Source: Gemmatimonadota bacterium (GTDB lineage Bacteria > Gemmatimonadota > Gemmatimonadetes > Longimicrobiales > Gaopeijiaceae). Taken from it: DNA of 12,719 nucleotides. The stretch lies in NCBI GenBank assembly GCA_016209995.1, contig JACQVC010000279.1:1-12719 (forward strand), given 5' to 3'. The notes below the pieces were generated by a model, which was not told the DNA's origin, searched no databases, and saw nothing but the letters and a program-made list of their open reading frames with translations. Of this stretch, positions 5,846 to 9,306 are shown one piece after another (position 1 is the stretch's first letter; each line of letters starts with the position of its first letter). The position numbers and the translations under genes are program-made.

Positions 5846-6523
5846 TTACCCTTCGCCCCCAGTCGCGACCGGAAGACCGGCTGCGCGCCAGTCGGGCAGG
5901 CCGTCCCTGAGACGGCGAGCTGCGTAGCCGTGGGCACGCAGGATCGTCACGGCCTCGTCGGCGAAGACACAATACCGGCCCCGGCTGTAGGCCACGATCT
6001 CGCTACCACCAGGGACCTCGTGGAGGGATTGCTCCAGTCGCGGCAAGGGAAGCGAGCGAGCTCCGGCGATGTGGCCGGCGCGGTACTCGTCTCCAGGCCG
6101 TACGTCCAGGACGATCACGTTACTCGACCGCAGCAGTTCCACCAGCTCATCCGCGCTCACGGTGTCCGCGTCTCGATCCGACCGGTAGCTCGCCACTGCC
6201 CGTTCCAGCTCGGGCACGCGTCCTTCGGCCAGATCGCGGATCGCCTGCACCGCGCGGTAGACGCCTTCATCCGCTAGGCGGTAGTAGCCGTATACCCCCT
6301 CCCGCCGCACTTCCACCAGGCCGGCGTTCCGCATCGCCTGGAGATGCTGCGAGGTGTTCGCCACGGACATGCCGGTCTCCCACGCCAGCTCCTCGACCGT
6401 GCGCTCGCATTGTGTCAACAGGTCGAGCAGCTCCAGGCGCCGCGCGTTCGCCAGCGCCTTCGCCACCTTGGCGAACGCCTGGAACACCTTCGTCTTAAAG
6501 CCACGGGTACGGCCTTCATCCAT
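5846..6523 (-). CDS. ArsR-family regulator fused to a rhodanese domain (Ser at catalytic position)
   Basis: 225 aa. Residues ~12-105 form an ArsR/SmtB winged-helix domain (LANARRLELLDLLTQCERTV, recognition region SVANTSQHLQAMRNAGLVEV, wing RREGVYGYYRL). Residues ~120-220 form a rhodanese domain (VIVLDVRPGDEYRAGHIAGA, DGLPDWRAAGLPV). This two-domain architecture is a known family of thiol or persulfide-linked repressors. In relatives the rhodanese loop reads YCRGPYC; here it is YSRGRYC, so the catalytic Cys is Ser180 (AGC, one base from TGC) while Cys185 is kept. Cys39 in the DNA-binding domain is the only other cysteine. ATG 6523 has no Shine-Dalgarno; the upstream bases are an AT-rich inverted repeat, a likely autoregulatory operator. 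The DUF4159 gene follows on the same strand after 181 bases and could be a target. Confidence 0.9.
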   Translation of the reverse strand: MDEGRTRGFKTKVFQAFAKVAKALANARRLELLDLLTQCERTVEELAWETGMSVANTSQHLQAMRNAGLVEVRREGVYGYYRLADEGVYRAVQAIRDLAEGRVPELERAVASYRSDRDADTVSADELVELLRSSNVIVLDVRPGDEYRAGHIAGARSLPLPRLEQSLHEVPGGSEIVAYSRGRYCVFADEAVTILRAHGYAARRLRDGLPDWRAAGLPVATGGEG

Positions 6524-7790: not shown

Positions 7791-8519
7791 TCACCCCGCA
7801 CGCAGCAGATCGTCTCGCCCCTCGAGAGTGAGGAGCTGCTTCTTGTACTGGACGCCGCCGGTGTAGCCGCCGAGGGAGCCGTCGCGGCGCACGACGCGGT
7901 GGCACGGCACGACGATGGCGACGGGGTTGTGGCCGAGGGCGTTGCCGACCGCACGGGCGGCTCCAGGCTTGCTGATGCGGCGGGCCAGCTCGGTGTAGGG
8001 GATCACCTCGCCGAAGGGGATGGCTCGCGCGGACTCGAGCACGCGGCGCTCGAACTCGCTCACGCTGCTCAGGTCGACGGGAATGTCGAACCGGGAGCGC
8101 GCGCCGGCGAAATACTCCTCGAGTTCCCGCTCGACGTCCGCCAGCGCGTCCGCATCCTGAACCACGGGCTGACCGGGGAACCGCTCCTCCATCTCGGCCA
8201 CGAAATCGTCGGGTCGCTGCGCGCGCCAGGAGCCCTGCTGCGCGTCCCGCTTCTGCCAGGACAGGCGCGCCAGGCCCCGGTCCGTGCGCGCGACGAACAT
8301 GGTGCCGAAGGGAGTGGGGAAGCTGTGCCAGCGCACGGCAGCGGTCGCGCAGCACACGGGCAGCGCTCCCCGCAGAGCCGTGAGCTCGGCGGCCTGCTCG
8401 CAGCATTCCTCGCAGGTGCCGAGATGCTCGGCTAGCGTTAGCTCCTCGCCGTCCGTCAAATCGCCCGCTACGTAGGCGATGATTCGGTCCTCCGGGACCG
8501 TGCACGGTGTGCGCGTCAT
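7791..8519 (-). CDS. Anti-sigma-type zinc finger fused to O6-alkylguanine-DNA alkyltransferase
   Basis: 242 aa. Residues ~10-50 are an anti-sigma zinc-finger segment (RIIAYVAGDLTDGEELTLAE then HLGTCEEC), ligands His32, Cys36 and Cys39 in the HX3CX2C pattern; Cys6 may be the fourth. Extra cysteines 40, 56 and 57 lie nearby. Residues ~62-242 are a complete MGMT: WHSFPTPFGTMFVARTDRGL, RELEEYFAGARSRFDIPVDL, FERRVLESARAIPFGEVIPY, the helix-turn-helix with arginine finger Arg189 (AARAVGNALGHNP), the active-site PCHRV with Cys206 (TGC), and GGYTGG. MGMT removes O6-alkyl groups from guanine by irreversible transfer to the Cys. Start ATG 8519 overlaps the sigma-factor stop (ATGA), with GGAG 8 bases upstream; an ATG at 8540 would lie inside the sigma gene. 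Position and zinc finger suggest it is the partner anti-sigma factor, with alkylation as the signal (inference). Confidence 0.88.
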   Translation of the reverse strand: MTRTPCTVPEDRIIAYVAGDLTDGEELTLAEHLGTCEECCEQAAELTALRGALPVCCATAAVRWHSFPTPFGTMFVARTDRGLARLSWQKRDAQQGSWRAQRPDDFVAEMEERFPGQPVVQDADALADVERELEEYFAGARSRFDIPVDLSSVSEFERRVLESARAIPFGEVIPYTELARRISKPGAARAVGNALGHNPVAIVVPCHRVVRRDGSLGGYTGGVQYKKQLLTLEGRDDLLRAG

Positions 8520-9067
8520 TCTCTGTACTCCTTCTTCCATAGATCGAACAGCTCTTGGCGCAGGCGCTTCATTCCCTGATAGACGTTCGCACGCGCGCTC
8601 GCTTCCGAGCAGCCGAGCTTTGCGGCGATCGCCGAGTAGTCATCTCCCTCGACCCAACGCAGCCACACGGCTTCGCGCTGCTTCCTGGGCAGACGCGCCA
8701 CGTGCTCGCGCACGCGTCTCCTCGCCGACTCATCCAGTTTGGTCACTCCTTCATCGGGAGACGCATCGCCGTCGGGTAGAAGCTGCGGACCGCGCGCATC
8801 CAGCGCCGCGCGGCGCCGTCGGTCGCGGGCCAGGCGATCCAGCGCTGCGTTGGTCGCCACGCGGTAGAGCCAGGCCCGCGGGGTCGTGTCGGGCGCGATC
8901 AGCGGCGGCTGCTGCGCAGCCGTGAGCCAGACGCGCTGGAGGATGTCGTCGGCTTCGTCAGCGCCGCCCAGCATGCGGGCGACGTGCCGGCGCAGCTCCG
9001 GGCCGTAGCACGCCACCCAATCGGCCAGAGGCGAGAAAGTGGGGGCGTGCTGCGGCTCGAGCGCCAT
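8516..9067 (-). CDS. ECF-type RNA polymerase sigma factor
   Basis: 183 aa from ATG 9067. Region 2 covers about residues 17-85 (LADWVACYGPELRRHVARML, EADDILQRVWLTAAQ, then PRAWLYRVATNAALDRLARD, the part expected to read the -10 element). Region 4 covers about 125-178 (RLPRKQREAVWLRWVEGDDY, SAIAAKLGCSEASARANVYQ, GMKRLRQEL; helix-turn-helix for the -35 element). Regions 1 and 3 are absent, as in ECF (group 4) sigma factors. Cytoplasmic; it directs RNA polymerase to a small regulon. GTG 9076, which overlaps the stop of the 44-aa gene (GTGA), is an alternative start adding three residues. Its stop overlaps the start of the zinc-finger/alkyltransferase gene. The frame remains open to 9592, but that part has no sigma similarity and runs into thrC. 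The regulon cannot be told from the window. Confidence 0.92.
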   Translation of the reverse strand: MALEPQHAPTFSPLADWVACYGPELRRHVARMLGGADEADDILQRVWLTAAQQPPLIAPDTTPRAWLYRVATNAALDRLARDRRRRAALDARGPQLLPDGDASPDEGVTKLDESARRRVREHVARLPRKQREAVWLRWVEGDDYSAIAAKLGCSEASARANVYQGMKRLRQELFDLWKKEYRE

Positions 9068-9072
9068 CCAGC

Positions 9073-9207
9073 TCACGCGAGGAACGCAGATCCCAGCGCC
9101 ACGGCGGTCACCTGCCCGTGCAGGATGGCGGGGATCACGATGGTCACGATGGTTGCGAACAGAGATTCGGTGGCGATACTCAGTGCGATCCTGATCCAGT
9201 ACGTCAT
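9073..9207 (-). CDS. Small hydrophobic protein (44 aa) heading the sigma-factor operon
   Basis: A 44-aa frame too short for usual cut-offs: MTYWIRIALSIATESLFATI, then VTIVIPAILHGQVTAVALGS and AFLA. Two hydrophobic stretches (about 4-29 and 33-44) suggest a membrane-associated peptide, probably one transmembrane helix with a second partial one; a hydrophobic signal sequence is the alternative. Coding is supported by an excellent ribosome site (AGGGAGG, 9219-9213) 5 bases before ATG, and by the stop overlapping a possible sigma-factor start (GTGA). No family is recognised. Being first in the operon it may couple the sigma system to the membrane, or serve mainly as a translated leader for the sigma gene. 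Confidence 0.6.
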   Translation of the reverse strand: MTYWIRIALSIATESLFATIVTIVIPAILHGQVTAVALGSAFLA

Positions 9208-9265: not shown

Positions 9266-9283
9266 CCCGTGTAACGGCACGAG
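9266..9283. other. Short inverted repeat between thrC and the sigma-factor operon
   Basis: On the minus strand, CTCGTG-CCGTTA-CACGGG forms a 6-bp stem with one G-U pair and a 6-base loop, just after the thrC stop and about 60 bases before the 44-aa gene. No U-tract follows. It could weaken read-through from thrC or be an accidental match. I found no convincing ECF-type promoter (GGAAC followed by CGTC at the usual spacing) in this 97-base gap. Confidence 0.25.
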
Positions 9284-9306
9284 AGGGCGGTTCGTGAAAA
9301 ATGAAT

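Follow-up and report, generated by a model that had tools for sequence, protein, structure and literature searches.

What controls an ECF sigma factor when the gene directly behind it encodes a DNA alkyltransferase (MGMT) that carries an anti-sigma-type zinc domain? This question is raised by an operon in the window, the 12,719-nucleotide stretch of a Gemmatimonadota contig (JACQVC010000279.1) analyzed here. In the accessible portion of PMC8999054, which refers to the original classification, 6-O-methylguanine DNA methyltransferases are given as conserved neighbors of ECF122 sigma factors, and ECF122 is placed among the groups without a cognate anti-sigma factor, its mechanism being unknown. 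A first-pass annotation of the window was aware of no described system of this design. This holds for the anti-sigma assignment and the mechanism, neither of which occurs in that portion of the paper, but not for the pairing of sigma factor and MGMT, which ECF122 already represents. Among the PMC literature matches listed, PMC8999054 was the only paper linking ECF sigma factors with MGMT, and no description of an anti-sigma-MGMT fusion was found. A review on ECF sigma factors in stress (PMC8103513) mentions neither methylguanine nor alkyl in its accessible sections, and the word sigma is absent from those of an alkyltransferase review (PMC10779285).

Organization of the operon

The operon lies on the minus strand. 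The first-pass annotation had described an ECF sigma gene followed, with an ATGA overlap, by the fusion gene, and this layout was confirmed: the sigma gene is located at 9067-8516 (183 amino acids [aa]) and the fusion gene at 8519-7791 (242 aa), the sigma stop and the fusion start overlapping by the 4 nt ATGA. The span given earlier, 7791 to 9207, covers these two genes as named, and it also takes in a third open reading frame (ORF) that had gone unnamed, the small ORF at 9207-9073 (44 aa, minus strand), which is the first gene of the operon. Upstream of this ORF, a promoter-like element, TTTCACG-N16-CGTTACACG, was matched on the minus strand at 9268..9299. Because homologues of the arrangement are conserved, its origin by chance can be excluded.

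The sigma protein scored over the Pfam cut-offs for Sigma70_r2 and Sigma70_r4_2. With 183 aa and regions 2 and 4 only, it has the makeup of an ECF (group 4) sigma factor, and its PDB profile matches were SigL, SigW, SigE, and SigH.

The product of the small ORF is strongly hydrophobic, with one likely transmembrane helix according to hydropathy, and had no Pfam or NCBIfam family match. Counterparts of 39 to 46 aa occupy the same position in seven loci (L031, L032, L034, L035, L036, L037, and L038), and none was found by the same scan in L040-L045. Situated between the promoter and the sigma gene, the 44-aa ORF possibly encodes a membrane microprotein of the switch proposed below. On the other side of the operon, no generally conserved gene was found: when the downstream ORFs of 12 loci were compared by their length and N-terminal residues, a common one was noted only for L035/L037 and L041/L044. 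Elsewhere in the window, a gene at 5846-6523 (minus strand) encodes a rhodanese domain joined to an ArsR-type HTH (Pfam scan) and adjoins a proline dehydrogenase gene (7627-6698).

Domains and predicted fold of the fusion protein

The fusion comprises an anti-sigma-type zf-HC2 region (residues 1-60) and a complete MGMT (residues 61-242). In the Pfam scan, zf-HC2 was matched at residues 9-39 (25.1 bits; cut-off, 22.2), Methyltransf_1N at residues 62-150 (47 bits; cut-off, 21), and DNA_binding_1 at residues 155-234 (111 bits; cut-off, 27). The scan and the residues themselves bear out the earlier account of an HX3CX2C finger joined to a complete alkyltransferase with PCHRV (Cys206) and Arg189; Cys206 is the catalytic cysteine and, by its family, Arg189 the arginine finger. 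Together with the neighboring residues, these make up the active site of an MGMT/Ogt protein. The zinc ligands H32-x3-C36-x2-C39 plus C6 give the pattern C-x25-H-x3-C-x2-C, which is presumably the ligand spacing of RsrA.

Several comparisons pointed to an anti-sigma relationship of the N-terminal domain. Residues 7-58 matched ChrR- and RsrA-type anti-sigma models, at scores below the NCBIfam cut-offs. PDB profile matches confined to residues 7-61 were DdvA (E = 0.0005), ChrR (E = 0.0006), 3hug_B (E = 0.006; 3hug is presumably RslA), a CHAT-domain protein (E = 0.009), and RsiW (E = 0.05). When the whole model was searched against the PDB with Foldseek, the MGMT part dominated the matches, and ChrR bound to SigE (2q1z), at rank 42 with a probability of 0.96 and an E value of 0.23, was the first match that was neither an alkyltransferase nor alkyltransferase-like. 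In the AF2 model (mean pLDDT, 93.7; 35-row alignment), helices 10-17, 23-35, and 37-60 precede the MGMT fold, the first strand of which is 62-69. The N-domain is thus modeled with three helices, whereas class I (ASD-I) anti-sigma domains have four helices wrapping the sigma factor. In general, the N-domain appears to resemble ChrR, RsrA, RsiW, DdvA, and RslA, a likeness that is weak but consistent. As in class I factors, the domain is N-terminal, helical, and similar in sequence to known anti-sigma factors, and the gene lies directly beside the sigma gene in all 37 fusion rows described below.

Pairing of the fusion with the sigma factor

In the protein search, 7995 candidates were scored, of which 4880 were relatives at E <= 1e-3, ordinary MGMTs included, and the best 120 were listed. 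Loci were drawn from two collections: a genome_contigs scan, in which the best 80 of 473 confirmed relatives yielded 15 full-length fusions, and a search across the window's phylum (395 genomes), which yielded 22 fusions among the higher-scoring rows. These 37 locus rows, one of which is the window, represent 23 distinct DNAs, 13 sets occurring in both collections.

A sigma gene was located upstream with the ATGA overlap in 37/37 fusion rows (23/23 distinct DNAs), compared with an adjacent sigma gene in only 3/99 other MGMT loci. The controls comprised 65 same-scan loci, with three adjacent sigma genes, 29 loci of relatives and the 5 nearest stand-alone MGMTs, with none; some of the 62 sigma-less same-scan loci end close to the gene, so that a sigma gene beyond the end would escape. 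The three controls with an adjacent sigma gene (L085, L086, and L102) all have an N-terminal extension and belong to the wider sigma-MGMT class discussed below. The first-pass annotation had named homologues occurring mostly without a sigma gene as a finding that would speak against it, and the opposite was observed. In addition, five genomes in which the nearest MGMT is without the N-domain yielded no orthologue of the fusion's sigma factor (best score, 57 bits; two of the five are 85-87% complete). The same search gave 391 (the query's own), 203, 165, and 90 bits in four sigma-linked genomes, where an unlinked ECF sigma factor reached 65 bits.

The anti-sigma role suggested earlier for the fusion thus gains support, at the level of sequence, from the domain and fold matches, the contrast in pairing, and the absence of the sigma factor from those five genomes, and we regard it as very likely that the fusion holds the sigma factor. 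Sigma factors and their target genes are commonly found in one operon, and the MGMT could be a mere target gene of the sigma factor with an incidental zinc finger. The listing of ECF122 without a cognate anti-sigma factor, in the accessible portion of PMC8999054, would suit such an ordinary operon as well. However, pairing in 37/37 rows against 3/99 other MGMT loci is not what it predicts, nor is the failure to find the sigma factor in the five genomes whose nearest MGMT has no N-domain, and we give this explanation very little credence.

The fusion is often not the cell's sole PF01035 protein, since 16 of 19 fusion genomes have two to four such proteins; it is the only one in the other three, G000 (76% complete), G150, and G145. 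As for the distribution of the fusion, the other 22 genomes of the same family as G000 had no match from the first residue of the fusion on contig G000:C207. Two genomes, G012 and G018, match it from residue 14-15 at 36-37% identity, with no adjacent sigma gene, and the fusions found outside G000 in the 395-genome search belong to families f7, f8, and f9. The G000:C207 fusion possibly reflects horizontal transfer or a misbinned contig.

A wider class of sigma-linked alkyltransferases

Family f6 of the same class has MGMTs that begin with some 35 additional aa of a non-zinc type, and a sigma gene with the ATGA overlap accompanied them in 3/3 fetched genomes (L138, L139, and L140; L102 is on the same contig as L139). 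Among 296 genomes of the Actinomycetota, the phylum of L085, 149 had a match at E <= 1e-25, and the 30 best loci, L085 included, were taken. The sigma gene lies directly upstream in 29/30 of them; the MGMT start codon overlaps the sigma stop by 4 nt in 25/29, and two start codons are TTG. For L226 (G542), whose actinobacterial MGMT is sigma-linked in type and N-terminally extended, no sigma gene was detected within the locus. Neither the actinobacterial nor the f6-type partners showed HxxxCxxC in their extensions. The relatives with short non-zinc extensions gave no sign of anti-sigma similarity: only their MGMT part was aligned in the profile comparison, and the structural model had low confidence (pLDDT, 57.6). 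Homology of these extensions with the zinc domain was considered and not adopted.

Six actinobacterial-type proteins (P0241, P0242, P0244, P0246, P0247, and P0248) join sigma factor and MGMT in a single chain and keep region 4; P0244 is disturbed within the MGMT. Sequencing errors are possible for the six chains because all are single-member clusters, and several other sigma-MGMT chains look frameshifted. Genome G313, besides its one sigma-MGMT pair, encodes another MGMT at G313:C90:26796-27805 (minus strand), and upstream of it, on the same strand, Sigma70_r4_2 was matched.

A search made with no prior motif upstream of the 30 actinobacterial sigma genes returned TCACG...CGTT among the top pairs. 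The set consisted of 28 fetched loci plus L085 and L086, each covered from 400 bases upstream to 60 bases downstream of where the sigma match begins. YTCACG-N15/16-CGTT was present in 16/30 of these regions and not in the other 14 (shuffles, 0.075; reversed control, 0). The window fusion seems, from sequence comparison, to represent a branch within a wider group of sigma-MGMT pairs, with a promoter element common to both branches and to two phyla.

The conserved MGMT gene beside the sigma gene, the neighborhood that the accessible text of PMC8999054 gives for ECF122, is found in the window, and the actinobacterial loci fit the ECF122 description. We infer that the latter are ECF122 or close to it, a match made by description and neighborhood rather than by reference sequence. 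The window and ECF122 share an ECF sigma gene with an adjoining MGMT gene, but the window MGMT carries a recognizable anti-sigma-type zinc domain, whereas ECF122 is listed there without an anti-sigma factor.

Origin of the linkage

In a 71-row tree of sigma factors, one branch (99/95) separated 45 MGMT-linked members, in which the fusion-linked and the actinobacterial ones group together, from 26 other ECF sigma factors; the bootstrap was incompletely settled, and L226 and L234 were left out. The 26 comparison sequences came from five genomes, as the 30 best PF08281 loci minus four that had no domain or were too short, and represent partial ECF diversity. The MGMT tree (109 rows, one unlinked set being represented by alternate loci) needed 5 changes between linked and unlinked and does not support one origin of the sigma-linked MGMT domains. 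In a 35-row MGMT tree, L133, which has neither the N-domain nor an adjacent sigma gene, was placed within the zinc clade (100/99 and 98/95). This position suggests that the domain and the sigma gene were lost together. With this tree, the zinc proteins as one clade were not rejected by the AU test (p = 0.16).

Conserved catalytic residues and a decaying zinc site

The two halves of the fusion are conserved to different degrees. Y175, R189, N198, C206, H207, and E233 are invariant in 120/120 proteins (the best 120 of 4880 relatives) and in 37/37 rows. H32, C36, and C39 are intact in 116/120 of the best-listed proteins and in 22/37 rows. The remaining 15 rows, corresponding to 10/23 distinct DNAs, have broken zinc ligands, and the sigma gene and the catalytic residues are kept. 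All of these loci (L041, L043, L044, L045, L122, and L127-L131) belong to the genus-level group g79, and 9/10 retain the exact short promoter motif described below, L045 having a one-base variant. Since the ligands have been lost while the sigma factor and the catalytic residues stay, zinc appears dispensable in g79 and the alkyltransfer residues do not.

These observations bear on the nature of the signal. The fusion might be an anti-sigma factor that responds, like RsrA or ChrR, to redox or zinc status at H32/C36/C39, with the MGMT as effector only. The presence of zf-HC2, an RsrA-like ligand spacing, and the intact H/C/C set in 116/120 proteins are what such a sensor would have. However, a zinc sensor does not fit ligands that decay in 15/37 rows beside a retained sigma gene, active site, and promoter motif, and HxxxCxxC was not seen in the actinobacterial and f6-type extensions. 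Moreover, the zinc motif of the anti-sigma domain may be structural rather than sensory, according to the accessible part of PMC7406223. Zinc as the sensor was set aside, and redox or zinc sensing is judged unlikely.

The signal might also be reversible engagement of damaged DNA by the MGMT domain of an anti-sigma fusion, rather than covalent alkylation. The invariance of Cys206 is indeed shared by Arg189 and the rest of the active site. Alkyltransferase-like proteins, however, bind lesions without the Cys, yet Cys206 was lost in 0/120 best-listed proteins and 0/37 rows. We consider this signal unlikely as well, and covalent alkylation of Cys206 remains the preferred trigger.

Promoter element and candidate regulon

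The short motif TTTCACG-N15/16-CGTT was found upstream of 15/23 related operons (shuffles: mean, 0.002; most, 1), and TTTCACG alone upstream of 19/23 (shuffles, 0.45); the set of 23 includes close relatives and three f6-type operons and leaves out L033, L039, and L130. The window's own copy occupies 9299-9273, with the small ORF starting 66 bases further on. In 22 fusion genomes, 40 sites were obtained, 15 being the own-operon promoters and 25 lying elsewhere, against 6 in the reversed control. With 25 other sites against 6, further targets of the sigma factor are possible. G000 has three sites besides its own operon. Judged by eye across the 22 genomes, the 25 other sites shared no repair function.

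An extended motif, allowed up to 3 mismatches, gave 7 sites in eight genomes. Five were own-operon matches, as expected, since operons of this kind had supplied the consensus. No other match was found in G000, G150, G394, and G401, one extra site with 3 mismatches was found in G400, and no site in G145 and G198. At L144 (G250:C35:2330-2299), an extended element with one mismatch sits after an apparent MarR-type gene and directly before an RND-type efflux gene, named by eye; it is the only such site in G250, where the own operon is cut at a contig end.

The first-pass annotation had proposed a search for a promoter motif shared by the operon and repair genes. The motif was recovered upstream of the operon but not, by eye, before repair genes among the 25 other sites. 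A wide regulon of repair genes is not supported by the short- or the extended-motif sites, a comparison in which weak sites would be missed. The promoter data suggest autoregulation with few other targets.

The same data bear on a further possibility, that the N-domain inhibits nothing and tethers the MGMT to the sigma factor or RNA polymerase, repair being aimed at transcribed or stress genes. Strict pairing and the single-chain sigma-MGMT proteins would fit tethering equally well. Nevertheless, the N-domain resembles domains that sequester sigma factors, and the extended motif looks autoregulatory rather than broad, which makes tethering quite improbable compared with sigma holding by the fusion.

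Proposed alkylation switch

We propose that the operon works by itself as a DNA-alkylation switch, in which the fusion would hold the sigma factor, alkylation would release it, and the own operon would be induced; as a whole, this reading of the sequences is rather probable. Provided that the sigma factor is held, its release by alkylation is likely. The alkylation trigger is favored because the catalytic residues are invariant, the zinc site varies, and the promoter looks autoregulatory.

To begin the cycle, the helical N-domain of the fusion would bind the sigma factor encoded by the overlapping gene and keep it off RNA polymerase, as family, fold, and strict pairing suggest. The MGMT domain would move an alkyl group from O6-alkylguanine to Cys206, once and irreversibly, as expected because the MGMT family does so and the residues are all present. 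Alkylation would distort or destabilize the MGMT domain, and this change or the loss of the protein would free the sigma factor; such coupling is conceivable because helix 37-60 runs, in the model, almost directly into the first MGMT strand (62-69). The free sigma factor would read TTTCACG-N15/16-CGTT of its own operon, to which the promoter motif points, and lead to new sigma factor and new enzyme. Finally, fresh unalkylated enzyme would recapture the sigma factor and the response would end. The repair capacity regained would scale with the amount of enzyme consumed.

Comparison with known systems

With RsrA and ChrR, the fusion shares an N-terminal helical zf-HC2-type domain and the gene order of sigma factor then anti-sigma factor. 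The C-terminal part of ChrR is a cupin, whereas the fusion ends in an MGMT with a complete set of catalytic residues, and some members of the family appear to do without the zinc site.

The likeness to Ada (Escherichia coli; the ada operon of Bacillus subtilis) is that self-alkylation would turn on synthesis of the repair enzyme. Ada has an AraC-type DNA-binding domain. Neither an AraC HTH nor the phosphotriester domain of Ada was found in the fusion by the Pfam scan. Ada switches via its phosphotriester-repair domain, as stated in the accessible sections of PMC10779285, whereas in the window the sensor would be the O6-alkylguanine cysteine itself and the route would be sigma release. In humans, mice, yeast, and archaea, according to the same sections, MGMT is degraded once alkylated.

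Implications

We see about an even chance that the sigma-MGMT operons of the two phyla are a second adaptive response to alkylation, in which the suicide enzyme is the anti-sigma factor, its alkylation is the signal, the regulon is mainly the own operon, and lesions are counted by enzyme consumed; the zinc variant would then show how ECF122 sigma factors are controlled. The value of the window's branch is that the anti-sigma-type domain lies on the MGMT itself and the promoter element is common to both branches. A concrete and testable mechanism is thereby offered for a sigma group whose control is listed as unknown in the accessible portion of PMC8999054. With one sigma factor, one fusion, and one promoter, the system is small enough to be reconstructed as an O6-alkylation sensor in E. 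coli. If true, the switch would represent a new logic of adaptive response, since the consumption of a single-use enzyme, and not a dedicated sensor domain, would set transcription. In some uncultured environmental bacteria, consumption of the enzyme probably leads to more enzyme being made.
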